A stretch of DNA of 64,000 bases from Neisseriaceae bacterium CLB008 (GTDB lineage Bacteria > Pseudomonadota > Gammaproteobacteria > Burkholderiales > Neisseriaceae): NCBI GenBank assembly GCA_041228285.1, contig CP166133.1, forward strand, positions 868,001 through 932,000, read 5' to 3'. Below, in pieces: positions 47,400 to 59,701 of the stretch. Within the stretch, counting starts at the first letter, position 1. The number at the start of each line of letters is the position of its first letter. The translations under genes and the position numbers were made by a program. The notes below the pieces were generated by a model. The model saw nothing but the letters and a program-made list of their open reading frames with translations. It searched no databases and was not told the origin of the DNA.

Positions 47400-49427
47400 A
47401 TGTTTAATAAAATTTTAATTGCCAACCGCGGCGAAATTGCCTGCCGTGTGATCCGTAGCGCTAAAAAAATGGGCATTGCCACCGTGGCCGTGTATTCCCA
47501 CGCCGACGCCAATGCCCAGCACGTGAAGCTGGCCGATGAAGCCGTGTGTATTGGCCCTGCGCCAGCACGTGAAAGCTATTTGCAAATCGACAAAATCATT
47601 GCTGCTGCCAAGCAAACTGGCGCTCAGGCGATTCACCCTGGCTATGGTTTTTTGTCTGAAAATGAAGCCTTTGCCGAAGCCTGCCAAGTGAATGACGTGG
47701 TGTTCATTGGCCCGCCGGTGGCCGCCATCAACGCGATGGGCCTGAAAGCCACGGCCAAGGCGCTGATGGAAAAAGCTGACGTGCCGCTGACGCCTGGCTA
47801 TCACGGCAGCAATCAAGATGCTCAGTTCCTGCATCAAGAGGCCGATCGCATTGGCTATCCGCTCTTGATTAAGGCCAGTGCGGGTGGGGGCGGTAAGGGC
47901 ATGAGCCTGGTGGAGTCTTCGGATCAATTTTTAAATGCCTTAGCCAGCTGCCAACGCGAAGCCACGGCCAGCTTTGGCAACGCCGACGTGTTGCTGGAAA
48001 AATACATCAGCCGTCCACGCCACATTGAAGTACAGGTGTTTGGCGACAGCCACGGCAACTACGTGCACTTTTTTGAGCGCGACTGCTCGGTGCAGCGCCG
48101 CCACCAAAAGGTTTTGGAAGAAGCGCCTGCGCCTAACGTCAGCGATGAGCATTTGGCCGCCATGCGTGAAGCCGCCATCAATGCTGCCCGCGCCGTAGGC
48201 TATGTGGGTGCAGGGACGGTGGAGTTTATTGCCCACCAAAGCGGTGAGTTTTACTTCATGGAAATGAACACCCGCTTACAGGTAGAGCATCCGGTGACGG
48301 AAATGATCACCGGCGAAGACTTGGTTGAGTGGCAGCTGCGGGTGGCCTTTGGTGAGCCCTTGCCGAAAACTCAAGAGCAGCTGGGGATTCGCGGCCATGC
48401 GCTAGAAGCGCGGATTTATGCCGAAGATCCAGACAAAGGCTTCTTGCCGTCTACCGGCCAAATTGTCTACCTACATCGCCCTGAAACCAACGACTTTGTG
48501 CGCATCGACAGCGGCGTAGAAGAGGGCGACGTGATCAGCGCCTATTACGACCCGATGATTGCCAAACTCATTGTGTGGGGTGAAGACCGTGCCGAGGCAT
48601 TGAACCGCATGCACCGTGCTTTGGGTGAATTTAATGTTTTAGGATTAAACAATAACATCAGCTTCTTACGGCGCTTAGTGGGCTGTGCCTCATTCACTCA
48701 GGCGGATTTAGACACCGGTCTGATTGAGCGTGAGCAAACGGCTTTGTTGCCGAATACTGAGCCGGTGGCTGCCAATATTTGGGGTTTGGCCAGCTTAGGC
48801 CTGCTGCTGCAACAGCAACAAGGTTGGCAGCAGGTGGCCCAAGCCGGTGCCGATGCCCAATCGCCTTGGCATCAGGCTGATGGCTGGCGCCTGAATGGCC
48901 ACGTACGCCGTAAGCTAAACTGGCTGCATCAAGGAGAGCCGACCCAAGTCATCGCGCATTACCAAGGTCAGGGGCATTTTAATCTGTTGCTCAATGGCCA
49001 AGCGGTGACCGCGTCGGGCACGCTGAATGCAGAGGGAGAGTTGACGGCCGTCATCGCAGGGCAGCAGAAAAAAGCCCGAGTGGTGCGCCAAGGTCAGGTG
49101 CTGTGGGTGTTTGTAGACGGTGATGCCCATGCCTTTACCTATGTCGACCCTTACAGCGCCGTGTCAGAAGAGGCCGCAGGCAGCAATCATTTGGCGGCGC
49201 CGATGCCTGGCCAAGTGGTTAAAGTGTGGGTGAGTGCGGGCGATGTGGTGAAAAAAGGCGATGCCTTGATGGTGTTAGAAGCCATGAAGATGGAGCACAC
49301 GATTACCGCGCCTGCTGACGGCATGATTGAGAGCGTGCTGTTTGCGGTGACCGACCAAGTGGCCGATGGCGATGAGCTGTTGGTGTTTGCTGAAGGCGAA
49401 AAGGAAACCAGCGATGTACCTGCCTAA
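47400..49427 (+). CDS. liuD: 3-Methylcrotonyl-CoA carboxylase alpha (biotin) subunit
   Basis: 675 residues: biotin carboxylase domain ([30 protein letters not shown]-grasp loop, [15 protein letters not shown]), a middle linker domain, and a C-terminal biotinyl domain with the biotin lysine in EAMKMEH (Lys630). Carboxylates its own biotin with bicarbonate and ATP and passes it to LiuB. AAGGA precedes ATG. Its last 14 bases overlap liuE. Confidence 0.95.
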
Positions 49428-50310
49428 TAAAGTCAAAATAGTGGAGGTCGGGCCGCGCGACGGCCTGCAAAATGAGGCGCAACAGGTCAGCACCGAGGTC
49501 AAGCTGGAGCTGATCGAACGCTTGGGCGAGGCAGGATTAACCACGATTGAGGCGACGGCGTTTGTGTCGCCCAAGTGGGTGCCGCAGATGGCCGATGCCA
49601 AAGCCGTGATGGCTGGGCTTAAGCCGAAGGCGGGCGTGGCCTATCCGGTGTTGGCGCCTAATTTGCAAGGCTTTGAGGCGGCTTATGGCGCCGGCGCTCG
49701 CGAAGTGGCGGTGTTTGCGGCGGCGTCGGAAGCCTTCTCGCAAAAAAACATCAATTGCAGCATTGCCGAGTCGATCGAGCGTTTTGTGCCGGTGTTGCGC
49801 GCGGCGCAAAGCCACGGTGTGAAGGTGCGCGGCTATGTGTCCTGTGTTTTGGGCTGTCCGTACGAGGGCGAAATTGCGCCTGAGCAAGTGGCGGAAGTGG
49901 CCCAGAGATTGTTGGATTTAGGCTGCTATGAAATCAGCCTTGGCGACACCATCGGTGTGGGTACGCCGGTGGCCACCATGGGCTTAATCGACGCCGTGTC
50001 GAAACGGGTGCCGCTGCCGCAGCTGGCTGGTCATTTTCACAACACCTACGGCATGGCCATCGCCAATATTTTTGCGGCGTTACAAATGGGCGTGGCGGTG
50101 TTTGATGCGTCGGTGGCAGGCCTAGGCGGCTGCCCTTATGCTAAGGGCGCCAGCGGCAATGTGGCCACGGAAGACGTGGTGTATTTATTAAACGGTTTGG
50201 GCATCGACAGCGGCGTGGATTTGCCTTCGTTAGTCAGCACGGCACACTGGATCAGCCAAGCGCTGGGTCGAGCACCGGCCTCACACACGGCCAAAGCCCT
50301 GCTGGCTTAA
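49414..50310 (+). CDS. liuE: Hydroxymethylglutaryl-CoA lyase
   Basis: 298 residues of the TIM-barrel HMGL family: [12 protein letters not shown] at the N-terminus, a metal-binding [13 protein letters not shown], and [15 protein letters not shown] with the active-site Cys. Cleaves HMG-CoA to acetoacetate and acetyl-CoA, ending leucine degradation. ATG at 49414, inside the end of liuD, has AAGGAAA upstream, so translation is coupled. Confidence 0.95.
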
Positions 50311-50427
50311 GCCGGCTTGGGTAAGCAGCATCATAATAAAAGGCATGGCCATAAGCCGTCGCCTGACCTTAGTCCGTTGTGATGAACGGGTGTTATCTAC
50401 AAAAGAGAACAGAAACAAGGAGTCACT

Positions 50428-52095
50428 ATGAGTCAACTAAGCTATGTGAATGGTGCCAGCAGCACCCCTTTGATCGGGGTGACGGTGGGCCAATACTTTG
50501 ATGAAGCCTGTGCGCGTTACGCCGAACATGAGGCTTTGGTGGTGCGCCATCAGAATGCCCGCTTGACCTATCGCGATCTGCAAGAGCAGGTCAATACCTT
50601 GGCCTGTGGCCTGCGTCGCCTAGGCTTAGTGGCCGGAGACCGCATTGGCATTTGGTCAACCAACTGCGTGGAATGGACGTTGATGCAGTTCGCCACCGCC
50701 AAGGCGGGGCTGATTTTGGTCAACATCAATCCTTCCTATCGCCGTACCGAACTTGAATACGCCATCAATAAGGTGACCTGTCGCGCCATCGTGATGGCCT
50801 CTGCGTTTAAAGACAGCAACTATAATGACATGATCTGTGATCTGGCTCCAGAGTTGGCCGATGCAGGCTCTGGCCCGCTACAAGCACAGCGGCTGCCTTC
50901 GTTGGAGTATGTGATCAGCATCAATAACGAACCACGCTCTGGTATGTTGAATTTTGCCGACTTGATGACTGCGCCCAGTGCCGAAGAGTTAGCCGCTTTG
51001 GCCGAAGTAGGCGCGTCTTTACAGTTTGACGACCCGATCAACATCCAGTTTACCTCTGGCACCACTGGCAGCCCTAAGGGCGCCACGCTGTCGCACCACA
51101 ATATTTTGAATAACGGCTTTTTTTGTGGCGAAGGCATTAAGCTGCAGGCGCAAGAGCGGGTGTGTATTCCCGTACCGTTATACCATTGCTTTGGCATGGT
51201 AATTGGCAATTTGGCCTGTATCACTCATGGTGCGACGATGGTGTATCCGGCCGCCGTCTTCGACGCGGCCCAGACCCTTAAAACGATTGAAGAGGAGCGG
51301 TGTCACGCAGCCTATGGCGTGCCCACCATGTTCATCGCCATGTTGGATCATCCCGACTTTGGTCAATACGATTTGAGCAGTTTACGCACCGGCGTGATGG
51401 CGGGCAGTCCTTGCCCGGTGGAGGTGATGCGTCAAGTCATCGATAAAATGTATATGCGCGAAGTGACGATTTGCTACGGCATGACCGAAACCTCGCCGGT
51501 GAGCTTTCAAAGCGCGACCGACGACCCCATCGACAAGCGCGTCAGCACCGTAGGCCGCGCCCACCCTCATTGCGAAATCAAAATTGTGGATGAGCTAGGC
51601 AAAATCGTGCCGCGTGGCGTGGTCGGCGAGCTATGTACCCGCTCTTATTCGGTGATGTTGGGCTATTGGGGCGATGAGAAAAAAACCGCAGAAGCCATTG
51701 ACGCTGCTGGCTGGATGCACACCGAAGATTTGGCCGTGCTAGACGATGAAGGCTATTGCCAGATGGTCGGCCGCATTAAAGACTTGGTGATTCGCGGCGG
51801 TGAGAACCTCTATCCGCGCGAAATTGAAGAGTTCTTATACACCCATCCAGATATTTTGGATGTGCAGGTGATTGGCGTGCCTGACACCAAGTACGGTGAA
51901 GAGCTGTGTGCTTGGATTGTGGTGAAAGAAGGCCGCAGCCTGACCGCAGAAGACATTCGAGGCTTTTGTGATGGCCAGATTTCACGCCAAAAAGTGCCGC
52001 GCTACGTGAAGTTTGTGGTGGAGTTTCCGATGACCGTTACCGGTAAAATCAAAAAGTTTGAGATGCGCGAAATCATGCAGGCCGAACTAGAATAA
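50428..52095 (+). CDS. AMP-binding acyl-CoA synthetase (ACSF2/FadK-like)
   Basis: 555 residues of the adenylating superfamily: ATP loop [37 protein letters not shown] and the catalytic Lys near the end ([11 protein letters not shown]). Activates a carboxylic acid to its CoA thioester. Similar ligases accompany liu clusters of betaproteobacteria, where acetoacetate or branched acids are candidate substrates; specificity cannot be read here. AAGGAG precedes ATG; it follows liuE by 117 bases and may be co-transcribed. Confidence 0.88.
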
Positions 52096-52406: not shown

Positions 52407-52425
52407 AAGAATAGTTATCATTATT
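52407..52425. promoter_or_regulatory. Fur-like box upstream of TonB receptor
   Basis: The 19 bases, read on the minus strand, match about 14 of 19 positions of the Fur consensus (core AATAATGATAA). It lies eight bases before a strong -35 hexamer, so iron-bound Fur could repress the operon. Confidence 0.65.
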
Positions 52426-52432
52426 GTTTTAA

Positions 52433-52461
52433 TTGACCGTCGGTCGGTCGGTGATTATAAT
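52433..52461 (+). promoter_or_regulatory. Promoter with tandem CGGT repeats in the spacer
   Basis: TTGACC and TATAAT are separated by exactly 17 bases. The spacer holds three tandem CGGT units (52441-52452), and GACC-GTC-GGTC (52435-52445) is a small palindrome over the -35. These look like a second operator, possibly for the TetR protein encoded at the end of the operon. Confidence 0.7.
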
Positions 52462-52492
52462 GCGATTTTTATTTCCCTAACCTGTAGCGAGA

Positions 52493-54730
52493 ATGTGCAT
52501 GAATCCTGAAAAAAAACGGCCGGCGGTTGCTGCGGCGCATGAGGGTGGGCCTAGCCCCACGGTGTCGATCTGGGCGCAGGCGGCGATGGCCGTTTGCTGT
52601 TTGAGCGCATTGAGTCAGGCTCAGGCCGAGACGGTGGGCGACAGTGCGGCGATTGCGGACATTACGGTAGAAGGGCATGGCCAAGCGCCGCGCCAAGGGG
52701 CGGTTCGAGGCTGGGTGGCAGAAACCTCGACGGTCGGCAGCAAAGCGCCTACCGATATTTTGACGTCTTCGCAATCGATTTCGGTGGTGACCCGCCAGCA
52801 GATGGACTTACAGCAGGCCAACAGCACCAGCCAGGCGTTGCGCTATACGGCTGGCGCCACCAGTGAGAAATTCGGCGGCTTTGGCGACTACATTGACCTC
52901 ACCAAAATTCGTGGCGCCGACGCTGATTATTATTTGGATGGCTTGAGGGTGATCAGCAACCCTGGCAGTTGGCTGCCGCAGGTGGACGCCTATGGTCTTG
53001 AACGGGTAGAGGTATTGCGCGGGCCGTCTTCTTCGGTTTATGGGCAGGGCACCGGCGGGGGCGTGATCAACCAGATCAGCCGTAAACCCAGCGCCGTCCA
53101 GTCGCAAGAATTAAGCCTTAGCTATGGTCGCTTTAATCGCAAACACCTCGGCCTAGACGCCACCGGGCCACTGAACGATGCCCAGACGCTGCTGTATCGG
53201 ATCACCGCCTCAGGTTTAGACAGCAAGGGCCAAGTAGAAGACACGCGCCATAAGCGTCTGTATGTAGCGCCGGCCATTACCTGGCAGCCAAATGAACACA
53301 CGGCGTGGACGGTAATGGGCAGCTACACGCAAGAGCCACATCTGCCCGATTACAACAGCCTACCGGCTGCCGTTTTGGGCCTAGACAACAGTCAATTGCC
53401 AGAAATTAACCGCCGCCGTAATTTTTCTGATCGAGATTTTTCCGCCTCTAGCCGCAAACAGCGCTCGTTGAGCTCGCTGTTACAGCATGATTTTGCCGAT
53501 GGTTGGCGCTTCACCAGCAATATGCGCTACATGACCATCGACACGGATTTACAGCGCTCAGTGGTGTACGGCTACCAAATGCAGGACGACAAGCTGATGC
53601 TGAAGGGGACGTATGAGGATTCGCCCGCCAGCGTGCGCGCCTTCTCGATGGACAACCATGTGAATGGTGAGGTGACCTTAGGCGCCACCACTCATGCGCT
53701 GCTGTTTGGCGTGGATTATGCGCGCGGAACGGTGAAAAACGCTCTGTATAGCGATGGGCCACACTTGTTTGATCCTTATGGGCCCAACTATCGGCCTGCG
53801 GTACGGCCCGACTTTGGCCCTAGCCGCCAAGCACCGTGGGCGGTGCACCAAACGTTTAACCGCTTAGGCGCCTATGTACAGGACCAAATAGCCTATCGCC
53901 AATGGCGGCTGACTTTGGGCGGTCGCTTTGACCGTTCGCGCACCGATGACGAAACCAATAGCTATTCTTTGGTGAAAACCAAGACCAAACAGGACGACCA
54001 TAAATGGAGCGGCCGTGCCGGCCTAAGCTATTTATTTGGCGACTCACTGGCGGCCTACGCCAGCTATGCCACTTCGTTTGACCCACTATTGGGCAGTGAC
54101 TACAAAGGCTCGGCCTTTGTGCCGATTGAAGCCAAGCAACGTGAAGTAGGGCTGAAGTATCACCCTGAGGGCAGCAAAACCATGCTCAGCGCTGCGCTTT
54201 TTCAGCTCAATCAAACCAACGTCAAAACCAGTGACGCCGAACACCTAGGCTTTAATAAGCAAGCCGGTGAGGTGCGCACCCGCGGCCTTGACCTACAGGC
54301 CACGCTGGCTCTAACCCGTCAGCTGAACATGATGGCCAGCTACACCTATCTGGACAATGAGTTGATTAAAGACACCAAGTTTGAAGGCAATAGCCTGGTG
54401 CAAACGCCGCAGCACAGCGGTTCGGTGTGGTTGGATTATCGCATCGGCAGCGGCGTGGCCCAAGGTTTACAAACCGGCGTGGGCATGCGCTATCTGGGCA
54501 GCAGCTACGGCGACCCGAGCAATCGTTTTAAAGTCCCTGCGGTTACGCTCTGGGATTTAGCGCTGAATTACGACCTAGGTCATGTGCGCACAGAGTGGGC
54601 CGGCGCCAGCGTGGCGTTGAACGTCAGCAACTTAACCAATAAAGACTATGTGGCCAGCTGTACCTCGGCTATGTATTGCTTCATTGGCCAAGACCGCACC
54701 GTCAGCGCTTCGCTGCGCTATCGGTGGTAG
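52493..54730 (+). CDS. TonB-dependent siderophore-type receptor
   Basis: About 745 residues. Signal peptide ends near AQAET; a plug domain follows (TSSQSISVVTRQQMD, LERVEVLRGPSSSVYGQGTGGGVINQISRKP), then a 22-strand-type barrel ending ASLRYRW. It takes an iron complex into the periplasm using TonB energy; the ligand is not predictable. Starts at 52493 and 52499 are both possible. Preceded by a Fur-like box and promoter; first gene of an operon with a complete ABC importer and a flavin monooxygenase. Confidence 0.93.
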   Translation: MCMNPEKKRPAVAAAHEGGPSPTVSIWAQAAMAVCCLSALSQAQAETVGDSAAIADITVEGHGQAPRQGAVRGWVAETSTVGSKAPTDILTSSQSISVVTRQQMDLQQANSTSQALRYTAGATSEKFGGFGDYIDLTKIRGADADYYLDGLRVISNPGSWLPQVDAYGLERVEVLRGPSSSVYGQGTGGGVINQISRKPSAVQSQELSLSYGRFNRKHLGLDATGPLNDAQTLLYRITASGLDSKGQVEDTRHKRLYVAPAITWQPNEHTAWTVMGSYTQEPHLPDYNSLPAAVLGLDNSQLPEINRRRNFSDRDFSASSRKQRSLSSLLQHDFADGWRFTSNMRYMTIDTDLQRSVVYGYQMQDDKLMLKGTYEDSPASVRAFSMDNHVNGEVTLGATTHALLFGVDYARGTVKNALYSDGPHLFDPYGPNYRPAVRPDFGPSRQAPWAVHQTFNRLGAYVQDQIAYRQWRLTLGGRFDRSRTDDETNSYSLVKTKTKQDDHKWSGRAGLSYLFGDSLAAYASYATSFDPLLGSDYKGSAFVPIEAKQREVGLKYHPEGSKTMLSAALFQLNQTNVKTSDAEHLGFNKQAGEVRTRGLDLQATLALTRQLNMMASYTYLDNELIKDTKFEGNSLVQTPQHSGSVWLDYRIGSGVAQGLQTGVGMRYLGSSYGDPSNRFKVPAVTLWDLALNYDLGHVRTEWAGASVALNVSNLTNKDYVASCTSAMYCFIGQDRTVSASLRYRW

Positions 54731-54734
54731 GGCC

Positions 54735-55898
54735 ATGGCTGCTTCAACGTCTTTAATCAGCCGTCGGCAGCTGCTGCTGGGCTTGCTGGCCAGCGGCGTG
54801 CTGTTGGCGGCGCCTGGCCTTGAACGCCCGAAAACAGCCGAGCGGACCGTGGTGGACATTGCTGGGCGTACGGTCAGCCTTACTCGGCCGATTAAACGCA
54901 TTTTGCTCGGTGATGGCACCTTGGCCTATGCGATGGCGCTCTTGTGCCCAGAGGACCCGTTTGGCGCCGTGGTTGGCTGGGGCAGCAACTTTCGGGCCGC
55001 TGATTATGATGGCTATGAGGCTTATCGGCGGCGGTTTCCGCAGCTGGCCGATATTGTGCGTTTCCCGTCTACGTCTCGAGACGCCATCGGCAATGAGCTG
55101 GCCTTGTCCTTAGAGCCGGACGTGGTGGTGATGAACTTAAGTTCGCGTGGCGCCGTTGAGGCCTCAGGTTTGATGGCTTTATTGGCCAAGCTGGGGGTGG
55201 CGCTGGTGTTTGTGGATTTTAGTACGCAGATTTTTCACCACAGCGCCCGCAGCATTGAGATTCTGGGCACGTTGTTTGGCCGCAGTGAGCAGGCGAAGGC
55301 GTTTCTGCGCTTTCGAGCCGAGCAGCTGGCGCGCGTGTTTCAGCCTTTAAAAGGGATTCAACATAGGCCGACGGTGATGTTAGAGCGTGCTGCGGGGCTG
55401 TACGAAGACTGTTGCCTGAGCTATGGCGAGGGCAATTTTGGCGCACTGGTGACGGCCGCTGGCGGAGACCATCTGGGCAGCCGCTTTATTCAGGGCACGT
55501 TTGGCACCCTGCATCCCGAGCAAGTCATCGCCTCTGAGCCTGATGTGGTCTTGGTCACCGGCGCCAATTGGTCGCTGTATGCCCCCACCGGTGACTGGGT
55601 AAACCTAGGGCCAGGCGCTGATCCGATTGAGGGTCAGGCGCGGCTACAGCGGCTGATGCAGCGCCCAGCCTATCGAACCCTACAGGCGGTTCAGAACGGG
55701 CGGGTACACGCCATTTGGCATCCGTTTTACGATAATCCCTATCATTTTGTGGCCTTGCAGCAGCTGGCGAAATGGCTGCATCCAGAACGATTTCAGGACT
55801 TAGACCCTGAAGCCACCTTTATTGAATTACACCAACGCTTTTTGCCGATTCCCTATCAACCGGGCTATTGGCTGAGCTTGAATGGAGCCTCTGTATGA
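54735..55898 (+). CDS. Iron-complex ABC transporter substrate-binding protein (FecB/FhuD-like), Tat signal
   Basis: 387 residues. ATG at 54735 opens a signal with SRRQLLLGLL, a twin-arginine pattern. The mature chain starts with the typical TVVDIAGRTVSLTRPIKRILL block and is a class III (FecB) binding protein for an iron complex. Tat export suggests folding or loading in the cytoplasm, uncommon for this family. It starts five bases after the receptor stop and overlaps the permease start. Confidence 0.87.
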   Translation: MAASTSLISRRQLLLGLLASGVLLAAPGLERPKTAERTVVDIAGRTVSLTRPIKRILLGDGTLAYAMALLCPEDPFGAVVGWGSNFRAADYDGYEAYRRRFPQLADIVRFPSTSRDAIGNELALSLEPDVVVMNLSSRGAVEASGLMALLAKLGVALVFVDFSTQIFHHSARSIEILGTLFGRSEQAKAFLRFRAEQLARVFQPLKGIQHRPTVMLERAAGLYEDCCLSYGEGNFGALVTAAGGDHLGSRFIQGTFGTLHPEQVIASEPDVVLVTGANWSLYAPTGDWVNLGPGADPIEGQARLQRLMQRPAYRTLQAVQNGRVHAIWHPFYDNPYHFVALQQLAKWLHPERFQDLDPEATFIELHQRFLPIPYQPGYWLSLNGASV

Positions 55899-56968
55899 GT
55901 GAATCTGAAACCACGGTGGCGACGCCTTCTTTAACGGCTGGCCGAACGCTGTATCAGCGTTTGGCCCAGCGCCGACTATGGCTGTTGGCGCTGATTGGTT
56001 TATTGACCGTGATCAGCTTTGGCTTGGACTTAAGCCTAGGTCAAGCCCGTTATCAGCCTTGGACGGTGCTGTCGGCGCTGTGGGATGCCAATGCAGCCCC
56101 TACGGTACAGGCCGTGCTGTGGGACATTCGTCTGCCGGTGGCGCTCACGGCCCTCATCGTGGGCGCTAGCCTGTCGGTGGCGGGGGTGGAGATGCAAACG
56201 GTGTTGGGCAATCCCTTGGCCAGTCCGTTTACCCTTGGTCTGTCTGCTGCGGCCAGCTTTGGCGCAGCGCTGGGCCTGGTGTTGGGCGTGAGCATTTTGC
56301 CTGCTGCGTGGGTGGCGTATGCGATTCCCGTTAACGCGTTTTTAATGTCGATGCTGGCGGCGTTGTTTATTCATTATTTGAGCCGCCGGCGGGGGGTGAC
56401 AACGGAAATGGTGGTGCTATTGGGCACCACGCTGGTGTTTACCTTTACCGCCATGCTGGAGGCGTTACAGTATGTTGCACCGGATCAGGCGCTGTCGGCG
56501 GTGGTGTTTTGGACCATGGGCAGTCTGGCCCGCACCAATTGGCCTAAGCTTGGGTTGATGAGCGTGGTGTTGCTGGCGGTGTTGTGGGCGTTTGCGCGCC
56601 AGGCCTGGGCTTTAACCGCTCTGCGTTTGGGCGAGGGCCGCGCCGCCAGCCTCGGCATTCCGGTGGCGAGGCTGCGCCTACAGGGCATTCTATTGGGCAG
56701 CCTGCTGGCGGCCGTGTGCGTGTCGTTTGTGGGCACCATTGGCTTTGTGGGGCTGGTTGGCCCACACATCGCCCGCATTTTAGTGGGCGAAGACCAGCGC
56801 TTTTTATTGCCAGCGTCGGCTTTGTGCGGTGCCTGCATGCTGTCGGCCGCCTCCGTTTTAAGTAAGACGCTGCTGGCGGGGCAGACTTTGCCGATCGGCA
56901 TCGTCACGTCCTTAGTGGGCGTGCCGCTGTTCTTTACCCTGATCTTGCGCACGAGGAGATCGTCATGA
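55895..56968 (+). CDS. FecCD-family iron-complex permease
   Basis: 357 residues with about nine or ten membrane segments: DIRLPVALTALIVGASLSVAG, NPLASPFTLGLSAAASFGAALG and TIGFVGLVGPHIARILVGEDQRFLLP are the standard blocks. Forms a homodimer that imports the iron complex handed over by the binding protein. ATG at 55895 overlaps the preceding stop (ATGA) with GGAG upstream. Confidence 0.92.
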   Translation: MSESETTVATPSLTAGRTLYQRLAQRRLWLLALIGLLTVISFGLDLSLGQARYQPWTVLSALWDANAAPTVQAVLWDIRLPVALTALIVGASLSVAGVEMQTVLGNPLASPFTLGLSAAASFGAALGLVLGVSILPAAWVAYAIPVNAFLMSMLAALFIHYLSRRRGVTTEMVVLLGTTLVFTFTAMLEALQYVAPDQALSAVVFWTMGSLARTNWPKLGLMSVVLLAVLWAFARQAWALTALRLGEGRAASLGIPVARLRLQGILLGSLLAAVCVSFVGTIGFVGLVGPHIARILVGEDQRFLLPASALCGACMLSAASVLSKTLLAGQTLPIGIVTSLVGVPLFFTLILRTRRSS

Positions 56969-57756
56969 GCCTGCTGGAAGTCACACATTTGTCGATGGCG
57001 TTTGGGCAGCGAACCATTTTGCGCGACGTCAGCTTTGGGCCCTTGCCTGGCGGCTGCGTGACCGCCTTGTTGGGTTCGAATGCGGCCGGTAAGTCGACGC
57101 TGTTGCGGCGTTTAGCCGGCGAGCTGAAGGGTGAGGGGGCGGTGACGGTATTGGGCCAGCCTTTAGCCAGCTGGCCAGCCCATCACCCGCATCGTCCTGC
57201 CCATGTGCCGCAAGACCTAGCCATGGGCTCGTCGCTGCGGGTGTTTGAGGCCGTGCTTTTGGCCAGCAAGCAAGGCGGTGCTTGGCGCGTGGCCGAGGAA
57301 GAGCTGGATCAGGTCACGCAGCTGTTGGCGCTGCTGTCGATTGAGGCCTTGGCCGACCGAATGCTGGCCACCCTCAGTGGCGGCCAGCGACAGCTGGTGT
57401 CGATTGCGCAAGCGCTGATACGGCAGCCGCGGGTGCTGCTGTTGGATGAGCCCACCAGCGCCTTAGATTTACAAAATCAATATGAAGTTTTGGCGTTGCT
57501 GCGGCGCTTGGCGCAGTCGCAGCAAATGTGCGTGGTGATGGCGATTCACGACCTCAATCACGCCCTGCGTTTTGCCGACCATGCCGTGGTGTTACACCAA
57601 GGCTTAGTCGCTGCTGAAGGTGCGCCCAAACAGATATTAACCCCGAGCTTATTGGCGCAGGTATATGGCGTGCATGCGCGCTTAGAAACCTGCGCTCAAG
57701 GGCAGCCGTATTTAGCCGTAGATGGTTCGATTCGGGCCCCTCAACCCTTGCTCTAG
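56965..57756 (+). CDS. Iron-complex ABC transporter ATP-binding protein
   Basis: 263 residues. Walker A GSNAAGKST (around 36-44), signature LSGGQRQLV and Walker B VLLLDEPTSALD followed by the His of AIHDLNHALRF. Powers the FecCD permease. ATG overlaps the permease stop (ATGA) with GAGGAG upstream. The monooxygenase gene starts 10 bases downstream. Confidence 0.92.
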   Translation: MSLLEVTHLSMAFGQRTILRDVSFGPLPGGCVTALLGSNAAGKSTLLRRLAGELKGEGAVTVLGQPLASWPAHHPHRPAHVPQDLAMGSSLRVFEAVLLASKQGGAWRVAEEELDQVTQLLALLSIEALADRMLATLSGGQRQLVSIAQALIRQPRVLLLDEPTSALDLQNQYEVLALLRRLAQSQQMCVVMAIHDLNHALRFADHAVVLHQGLVAAEGAPKQILTPSLLAQVYGVHARLETCAQGQPYLAVDGSIRAPQPLL

Positions 57757-57765
57757 GAGGCACTG

Positions 57766-59079
57766 ATGCAGGTAGACAAAAAAATGATTTTGCTGGCTTT
57801 GCCTAGCTTACACGCCGGCGCCTGGCGCCACCCTGAAGCCGAGCCAGGCTTTCATGCCGACTTTAAACACTTAAAATGGCTGGCGCAAACCTTAGAACGC
57901 GGCTGTTTTGATGGTCTGTTTCTGCCGGATACCTTGGCGCTGCGGGCCGCACCGTTAGAGGCCTTGGTACGCGGCCACAGCGTGGCCACGCTAGACCCTT
58001 TAACCGTGCTGCCGGCCTTAGCGGCCGTCACCGAACATTTGGGCCTGATCGGCACGGCCAGTACCACCTATAACGAGCCGTATATGCTGGCTCGACGGCT
58101 GGCCTCTTTAGACCACATCAGTGGCGGGCGCGCCGCTTGGAATTTAGTCACGTCCAGCAATGCCAATGAAGCGGCTAACTTTGGTCGTGACGCGCATATG
58201 GACCATGCCGAACGCTATCGGCGTGCGCGTGAGTTTATGACGGTGATGGATGGATTGTGGGACAGCTGGGCGGCCGATGCATTTTGTCAGGATGCGGCCA
58301 GCGGCGTGTATGTTGATGCGACCAAAATGCAGGTGCTCAACCATCGCGGCGCTTATTTTCAGGTGAAAGGCCCATTAAACGTGGCGCGCCCGGTGCAGTC
58401 TCGTCCCGTGGTGGTGCAGGCAGGCGCCTCTGAGGCTGGGCGTCAGATCGCGGCCGAAACCGCTGAAGTGGTGTTCACTTATCAGACCGATTTACCGTCG
58501 GCTCAGGCGTTTTATCAAGACATGCAAGCACGAACCGCTGCCGTTGGGCGGCCCGCGCTTAAAATCATCCCTGCCGTGTTTGTGGTGTTGGGCGCGACAG
58601 CCGCGGAGGCTCAGGCCAAACGACGGGCGTTAGATGATTTAGTCGATGACCAAAGCAGTATGGCGACGCTGTCGATTGCCTTGGGCCATGATGTGTCAGA
58701 GTATGACCCGCAAGGGCCATTGCCAGCACTGCCGCCGAGTAATGCGAGCAAGAGTGGGCGTGATCGTTTGGTGGACATGGCCAAGGCAGAAGGCTTAAGC
58801 ATCATTGAATTAGCGCGACGGGTCGGCGGCTATCATGGGTTGGCCATGGTCGGCACGGCCACCCAAGTGGCGGATGAGATGGCGCAGTGGCTAGAGGAGG
58901 GCGCGGCCGATGGCTTTAACGTGATGTTTTCACATCTGCCCGGCGGCGCCAGTGAGTTTGTGACCCAAGTGGTGCCTGAGCTACAGCGTCGTGGTTTACT
59001 GCGCACCCACTATGAAGGCCGTACGTTTCGCGATCGTCTTGGTTTGGCCACGCCTGCTGTAGGCTATAGCCGCAGCTAA
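57766..59079 (+). CDS. NtaA/SnaA/DszA-type flavin-dependent monooxygenase (LLM class)
   Basis: 437 residues of the bacterial luciferase-like family. GCFDGLFLPDTL near 45, TASTTYNEPYMLARRLASLDHISGGRAAWNLVTS near 105, and FNVMFSHLPGG near the end are the NtaA-group blocks. Members oxidise nitrilotriacetate, EDTA or sulfur heterocycles with reduced FMN from a partner reductase. No reductase gene is nearby. AGGAGG precedes ATG. As the last gene of an iron-complex uptake operon, it may break down the imported chelator to release iron; this is inference. Confidence 0.85.
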   Translation: MQVDKKMILLALPSLHAGAWRHPEAEPGFHADFKHLKWLAQTLERGCFDGLFLPDTLALRAAPLEALVRGHSVATLDPLTVLPALAAVTEHLGLIGTASTTYNEPYMLARRLASLDHISGGRAAWNLVTSSNANEAANFGRDAHMDHAERYRRAREFMTVMDGLWDSWAADAFCQDAASGVYVDATKMQVLNHRGAYFQVKGPLNVARPVQSRPVVVQAGASEAGRQIAAETAEVVFTYQTDLPSAQAFYQDMQARTAAVGRPALKIIPAVFVVLGATAAEAQAKRRALDDLVDDQSSMATLSIALGHDVSEYDPQGPLPALPPSNASKSGRDRLVDMAKAEGLSIIELARRVGGYHGLAMVGTATQVADEMAQWLEEGAADGFNVMFSHLPGGASEFVTQVVPELQRRGLLRTHYEGRTFRDRLGLATPAVGYSRS

Positions 59080-59083
59080 AGGC

Positions 59084-59701
59084 TTAGGGCAGCAGCATGC
59101 GCAAGCAGCTTTGCGCCAAGCTGTCGGCAAAGGCGTCGGCGTCGGCGTCTTGGGTGGCGATTAAGTCATCGGTGGCGCCGTGAACGCCGGAGTAAATCAT
59201 GAGGGCCACCAGCCGCGGCTGTGGCGGCGCCCACGCGCCCGCTTGGCTGCCGCCTTCAATGATGGCCAAGAGCTGATCGAGAATGGCGTTCTTGGCTGGA
59301 TTAGCACGATCGTGGTGATGGTGGTTGATGTAGACGATGTCGTGGATGTGGTAGGTCTCAGCGTAGGTGGTCACATTGCTGTGGACCCACTGGCGTAGCT
59401 TGCCGACCCAATCATCATCGTCGCATTGCGCCATGGCCGCGGCCAAACGTTCGATAAAGCGTTCGGTGTAGCGCTGGCCTAACGACACCAATAGGTCGTT
59501 TTTAGACGAAAAATAGTGATAGAACGTGCCCTTGGCTACGTCGGCCGCAGTCACAATGTCGTCAATCGTGGTGGCGTCCACGCCCTGTGCCAGAAAGAGG
59601 TTCTCGGCGGCGTTCATGAGCTCTTCTAGGCGCACATGGGCGGGCTTGGTACGAGGACGTTTGGGGGCTACTTGGGCGTTGGTCTGCGGCATAGGGCTCA
59701 T
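59084..59701 (-). CDS. TetR-family regulator, convergent with iron uptake operon
   Basis: 205 residues. N-terminal helix-turn-helix (ATTIDDIVTAADVAKGTFYHYFSSKNDLL), ligand domain with a run of His and Asp (YINHHHHDRANPAKN). Its stop is four bases from the monooxygenase stop on the opposite strand. It may sense the chelator or its breakdown product and bind the CGGT-repeat promoter at 52433-52461; this is a guess from position. A second ATG at 59692 is possible. Confidence 0.85.
   Translation of the reverse strand: MSPMPQTNAQVAPKRPRTKPAHVRLEELMNAAENLFLAQGVDATTIDDIVTAADVAKGTFYHYFSSKNDLLVSLGQRYTERFIERLAAAMAQCDDDDWVGKLRQWVHSNVTTYAETYHIHDIVYINHHHHDRANPAKNAILDQLLAIIEGGSQAGAWAPPQPRLVALMIYSGVHGATDDLIATQDADADAFADSLAQSCLRMLLP

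Follow-up and report, generated by a model that had tools for sequence, protein, structure and literature searches.

The window analysed here is a stretch of 64 kb from the genome of Neisseriaceae bacterium CLB008, which consists of a single contig of 3.26 Mb. The genes and sites of interest are the following (positions are those of the window):

52407..52425, strand not assigned: Fur-like box upstream of the promoter, 14 of 19 positions matching GATAATGATAATCATTATC on the minus strand
52433..52461, plus strand: sigma-70-type promoter TTGACC-17-TATAAT, 11 of 12 consensus positions
52433..52450, plus strand: predicted TetR-type operator TTGACCGTCGGTCGGTCG over the -35 box, 18 bp, matrix score 27.6 bits
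52493..54730, plus strand: TonB-dependent siderophore receptor, plug plus barrel, TIGR01783 365.9 bits (cut-off 223.5)
54735..55898, plus strand: periplasmic binding protein with twin-arginine signal, PF01497 (Peripla_BP_2), N-terminus MAASTSLISRRQLLLG containing the twin-arginine motif
55895..56968, plus strand: FecCD-type permease, PF01032 267 bits, ATGA overlap with the binding protein gene
56965..57756, plus strand: FecE/BtuD-type ABC ATPase, PF00005, ATGA overlap with the permease gene
57766..59079, plus strand: FMN-dependent (luciferase-like) monooxygenase, proposed to cleave a chelator, member of the TIGR03860 NtaA/DmoA family over its whole length
59084..59701, minus strand: TetR-family repressor gene, convergent on the operon, PF00440

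The five genes on the plus strand (52493-59079) form one tight unit. The start codon of the monooxygenase gene is preceded by AGGAGG and lies 9 bases past the stop codon of the ATPase gene. All operon genes were assigned at the family level with scores above the curated cut-offs. The genes were thus found where a first-pass annotation, made from the sequence alone, had placed them, and the tight spacing with ATGA overlaps that it described was seen at the binding protein/permease and permease/ATPase joins. With a receptor, PF01497, PF01032 and PF00005 in one unit, the locus is a FecCD-type TonB-dependent siderophore uptake operon. Among solved structures the nearest to the receptor were the enantio-pyochelin receptor, FoxA, CntO and FhuA, and the top relative of the binding protein was 6b2x, an iron/siderophore binding protein (259 bits). 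No equivalog model reached its cut-off for either protein (FhuA, 497 bits against 803; ferrichrome/ferrioxamine binding protein, 205 against 374), and homology therefore does not reveal the ligand. As the first-pass annotation had observed, no flavin reductase gene adjoins the operon; there are at least five PF01613 flavin reductases elsewhere in the genome.

The monooxygenase scored 528.3 bits against TIGR03860 (cut-off 279.7), which makes it a member of this family. In a comparison with the PDB the best scores were obtained with NtfO1-NtfO2 chain B (332 bits), BdsA/DszA (319 bits) and YtnJ/CmoJ (316 bits), whereas NTA monooxygenase (280 bits) and EmoA (208 bits) followed behind; NtaA and EmoA are therefore not the nearest solved members. 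The initial description of the enzyme as a nitrilotriacetate-type monooxygenase holds for the family and fails for the closest relative, and judged from these scores 'nitrilotriacetate-type' is best taken as a family label only. NTA and EDTA monooxygenases cleave C-N bonds, DszA/BdsA and CmoJ cleave C-S bonds. The protein has no signal peptide and is predicted to be cytoplasmic. A structure model (pLDDT 76), computed from an alignment without three rows from plasmid records, had a fold like those of CmoJ, BdsA, NTA monooxygenase and EmoA and indicated no substrate. The genes of orthologues with 69-74% identity either belong to the same operon or adjoin ros clusters (see below). In the phylogenetic tree the operon monooxygenases formed one clade (support 100/100), distinct from relatives with 56-61% identity. 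The trees of the monooxygenase, the binding protein and the receptor agreed in their well-supported groups: three Pseudomonas, two Halomonas and three Erwinia-type sequences. The sister clade at 56-61% identity was found in sulfur-scavenging loci (L086/L088), in Variovorax with CysB and TauD near a family 2A encapsulin/cysteine desulfurase and in Paraburkholderia with TauABC.

The complete operon, with the same gene order and the convergent TetR gene, was present in Oceanimonas baumannii, P. viridiflava, P. flavescens, P. aegrilactucae, Halomonas llamarensis and one further Halomonas-family genome, with protein identities of 64-79%. The operon proteins of Pseudomonas, Halomonas and Oceanimonas were each 61-79% identical to those of the window. 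Since the same five genes occur in the same order in these three groups, the arrangement is not due to chance. Within the Neisseriaceae the operon was found in 2 of 83 genomes, both of the window species, and an identical monooxygenase is encoded in a MAG called Neisseriaceae bacterium. Two congeners (G006 and G007) do not have the operon. In G007 the genes of the left flank are kept (proteins about 90% identical) and those of the right flank differ, so this genome was rejected as a clean empty site. The genes to the left of the operon (window positions 47400-52095) are leucine-degradation (liu-type) genes, which are syntenic in G007 and are followed there by molybdoenzyme-type genes. Elsewhere the operon is rare. 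The only carrier among 369 genomes of the class was that of the window; two carriers each were found among 399 genomes in one sample of the genus Pseudomonas, 37 in a sample of the genus Erwinia, 250 of the Halomonas family and 395 of the order to which E. rhapontici belongs. Carriers so rare and scattered mean that the gene set has spread horizontally, and the window species will have acquired it in this way.

The survey of genomes for co-occurrence of these genes, suggested in the first-pass annotation, gave a uniform answer. Every genome matched by the binding protein at an identity of at least 60% also had the adjoining monooxygenase gene. Genomes G000, G005, G452, G457, G455 and G1040 were found with the binding protein as the only query and also have the monooxygenase; G456, G459 and G451 were found with the monooxygenase as the only query and also have the binding protein. 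Homologous operons lacking the enzyme, which the first-pass annotation had named as evidence against its reading, were not encountered; only systems with about 48% identity are without it. Eight Halomonadaceae genomes contain such a paralogous binding protein-permease-ATPase set. There was no monooxygenase gene in the seven of these loci that were read for it (L059-L065), nor was the operator present in the Halomonadaceae paralogue loci. These matches and the alphaproteobacterial binding-protein matches, being free of the monooxygenase, were rejected as belonging to a different system. On the alphaproteobacterial plasmids (L027, L028 and L030) the related binding protein, permease and ATPase genes are accompanied by a gene for a SAM-dependent methyltransferase, which replaces the receptor and the monooxygenase.

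In E.rhapontici (L067), E.persicina (L070) and Pseudomonas sp. WS 5079 (L068/L069) the genes of the receptor, the binding protein and the monooxygenase lie directly beside a biosynthetic cluster. This cluster codes for an adenylate ligase, a thioesterase, a CysK-like PLP enzyme, an allene-oxide-cyclase-like protein, a NikD-like FAD oxidase, a KS-AT-ACP polyketide synthase and a Glu/Leu dehydrogenase-type protein. NikD is a picolinate-forming oxidase, and the FAD oxidase of the cluster (RosE) scored 397 bits against it in Erwinia and 130 bits in Pseudomonas. The cluster is rosA-G. Its product, proferrorosamine A, is L-2-(2-pyridyl)-1-pyrroline-5-carboxylate. The rosA-G genes were reported to make this Fe2+ chelator in E.rhapontici P45 and to be present in all examined strains of E.persicina and E.rhapontici (PMC9650351). 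The proposed route uses picolinate, one malonyl unit and O-acetylserine, with spontaneous closure to the dihydropyrrole, and the product prefers Fe2+ over Fe3+ (PMC11481915). For rosA-G these two papers refer to Born et al. 2016, which is cited here through them. The named cluster does not include the uptake and monooxygenase genes, and a literature search that covered neither Born et al. 2016 nor Vande Woestyne et al. 1991 yielded no paper giving them a function. The Erwinia cluster lacks permease and ATPase genes, and its binding protein and monooxygenase genes overlap; in Pseudomonas WS 5079 all five operon genes are present and run convergently to ros. These different gene arrangements in two lineages indicate that the association between ros and uptake genes has been kept through rearrangement.

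The NtaA/EmoA analogy, by which the first-pass annotation had linked the enzyme to synthetic chelators, is not supported by this comparison. DszA/BdsA and CmoJ stand closer to the enzyme than EmoA does, and the cluster with which the genes are linked is that of a natural chelator, proferrorosamine; degradation of NTA or EDTA was therefore rejected as the main reading.

The operon and the ros clusters also have a predicted operator in common. The operator matrix was built from 11 sites, all from other genomes (TTGACYGNCRGTCRGTCR). When the 64 kb window was searched with this matrix, the site at 52433 scored 27.6 bits and the next separate site 12.0 bits; no site of comparable score was found upstream of the window's own TetR gene. 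In 828 kb of loci, sites of at least 18 bits were located at the promoters of uptake operons, exporter genes, rosA and the Erwinia binding protein-monooxygenase genes, or next to TetR genes. None was found outside the ros/uptake regulon in these 828 kb, and none in the loci of the paralogues with about 48% identity. All carriers have the operator at the uptake promoter, and producers have it at the rosA, exporter and TetR/exporter promoters as well. The sites of the matrix were chosen by eye upstream of operons, which makes their own scores circular; this does not apply to the window site, to the rosA site and several TetR/exporter sites, or to the absence of further sites. The TetR of the window was 65-72% identical to the TetR proteins of non-producer loci, 57% identical to the one encoded beside rosA in Pseudomonas WS 5079 and 43-45% identical to those of Erwinia-type loci. 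With TetR and operator common to the operon and the rosA-G clusters, the operon belongs to the proferrorosamine (ros) regulon. The window TetR is, as far as these comparisons can tell, the conserved regulator of the ros/uptake regulon and an orthologue of the TetR of the ros cluster. The common operator at the ros, exporter and uptake promoters suggests that synthesis, export, and uptake together with the monooxygenase make up one regulon.

The Fur-like box upstream of the promoter was one of three equally good matches in the 64 kb window and hence is suggestive only. The corresponding position in orthologues also had 14 of 19 matches in Erwinia and Enterobacterales and was weaker in Pseudomonas. 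A search with the strict Fur consensus allowing up to 3 mismatches gave no match.

The common operator bears on two other explanations. One of them is that the operon transports another siderophore, hydroxamate or pyochelin-like, and that its association with ros, seen in a few genomes, came about secondarily. The nearest named receptors (FhuA, FoxA, CntO and the enantio-pyochelin receptor) and the nearest named binding protein model, that for ferrichrome/ferrioxamine, would fit it. We think it improbable, however, because every equivalog score stayed far under its cut-off and because two unrelated lineages show the operon connected with ros genes through operator and TetR. The other is that the monooxygenase acts on an unrelated substrate, for example an organosulfur compound, and merely has the promoter in common with the uptake genes. 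Its closest relatives outside the operon clade are encoded near CysB, TauD and TauABC genes, and the solved structures closest to it include DszA/BdsA and CmoJ. Such a substrate is nevertheless hardly credible, since the position of the gene inside one transport operon is conserved across families and the TetR operator is kept even where the monooxygenase gene is apart from the permease genes.

RosF was present in only 3 of the 10 carrier genomes tested. It was absent from the window species and from 6 of the 9 other carriers, all of which have the monooxygenase. A genome-wide search of the window genome with RosF as the only ros query gave a best match of 34%, located in a different NRPS/PKS cluster. 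The window organism would hence be a user and not a producer of the chelator. A biosynthetic role in this organism was rejected on the same grounds, the PKS match being part of an unrelated NRPS/PKS siderophore-type locus. That locus lies outside the window (G000:C1, about 1480000-1512000; L025, L026) and has its own TonB receptor, a thioesterase and exporters, as well as an adenylate ligase, an isochorismatase-like protein and a SIP reductase-domain protein; its product is probably a catecholate-type siderophore. In an Enterobacterales MAG (L012:5900-6400) the ros cluster is replaced by a rosG remnant of 70 residues with 94% identity, and the receptor, the binding protein, the monooxygenase and the exporter are all intact. 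By this remnant the MAG appears to be a producer lineage turned user. In two non-producer Pseudomonas (L006:4016-5470 and L007:12131-13585) the gene of the regulon's DHA2-type exporter is retained and is preceded by the same operator.

That carriers without rosF keep the monooxygenase argues that the enzyme belongs to uptake or use of the chelator and is not needed only for its synthesis. An enzyme tailoring proferrorosamine during synthesis, or modifying the imported chelator without destroying it, and kept by non-producers through descent, would account for its being encoded next to ros genes in each of the three genomes found to have rosF. We regard this as unlikely, if somewhat less so than a transporter for another siderophore: the monooxygenase is intact and 70-74% conserved in non-producers of several families, always together with the uptake genes, and in the published pathway rosA-G alone give the product (PMC11481915).

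Taken together, these data suggest that the operon probably allows non-producers to take up the Fe(II) complex of a chelator that other bacteria make, proferrorosamine A or a closely related pyridine-pyrroline compound, and that subsequent oxidative destruction of the ligand frees the iron. In the presence of the chelator or its complex TetR would leave the operator over the -35 box, and low iron would probably add relief from Fur. The TonB receptor, the Tat-exported binding protein and the FecCD/ATPase pair would then carry the Fe(II) complex into the cytoplasm. There the luciferase-like monooxygenase, supplied with FMNH2 by a reductase encoded elsewhere, would oxidize the ligand, which would let go of the iron. 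Ferric siderophores are unloaded by reduction of the iron. Ligand destruction is proposed here because the metal is already Fe(II), and reductive release is thus not available. We would put at about even the chances of the more specific proposal that the monooxygenase is the iron-release enzyme, cleaving the ligand of Fe(II)-proferrorosamine so that iron is released by neither reduction nor hydrolysis, and that the operon moves among non-producers as a piracy module with its own TetR sensor. Of the earlier suggestion that an imported ferric chelate is broken down oxidatively, the outline is plausible and is strengthened by the comparison of genomes; the ferric part is not upheld, the ligand most likely being a natural ferrous one.

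Several observations count against this reading. The closest solved relatives of the receptor bind ferric ligands, and the nearest relatives of the enzyme outside the operon look like organosulfur oxidases, whereas proferrorosamine is sulfur-free. As the Erwinia cluster has no permease and ATPase genes, import into the cytoplasm would require another transporter there. By analogy with enterobactin producers, which have Fes, producers with a ligand-destroying enzyme would also have to avoid a futile cycle.

The main rival is detoxification, which would leave an identical picture in the sequence. It assumes that the chelator harms cells by depriving them of iron, that import delivers the iron, that the main task of the monooxygenase is to destroy free chelator in the cytoplasm, iron being released without its help, that TetR senses the chelator as a toxin and that the exporter, where non-producers retain it, works alongside. 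The TetR gene and the DHA2-type exporter with the same operator in the non-producers P. flavescens and P. viridiflava are consistent with it, as is the inhibition of E.amylovora by the compound, according to published work as cited in PMC9650351. On the other hand, the enzyme is encoded by the last gene of an uptake operon and by a gene overlapping that of the binding protein in Erwinia, which ties it to import, and there is no exporter gene beside the window operon. Detoxification seems to us a real but minor possibility.

No description of how iron is removed from ferrous siderophores was found in the literature searched. If the operon oxidizes its ligand, siderophores can be unloaded in a third way, for which it supplies a defined gene, a regulator and a substrate that can be tested. 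Release of iron by ligand oxidation would also offer a function for genes lying unnamed beside the known proferrorosamine cluster and imply chelator piracy by bacteria of several families.

The system proposed here, siderophore uptake with a ligand-destroying release enzyme, can be compared with four known ones. It is like the proferrorosamine A system of Erwinia rhapontici/persicina in its orthologous TonB receptor, binding protein, monooxygenase and TetR and in its operator, but the window genome lacks rosF and has a complete FecCD/ATPase pair. FhuBCD, BtuCDF and YiuABC represent the same kind of FecCD uptake, with the same families and the same binding protein, permease, ATPase order; the window operon adds the monooxygenase and TetR control, both of which are missing from the tested paralogues with about 48% identity. 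NtaA, EmoA, DszA and CmoJ (TIGR03860) resemble the window enzyme in the full-length family match, in the fold and in needing no reductase of their own in cis. The window enzyme differs from them in being nearer to BdsA/DszA and CmoJ than to the NTA and EDTA monooxygenases and in being encoded in a FecCD-type operon with a TonB receptor. Siderophore esterases of the Fes/IroE type free iron in the cytoplasm by breaking up the ligand after import. The logic proposed for the window operon is alike, with an O2-dependent flavin enzyme in place of hydrolysis and a ferrous in place of a ferric complex, and the monooxygenase would thus do by oxidation what the esterase Fes does for enterobactin.
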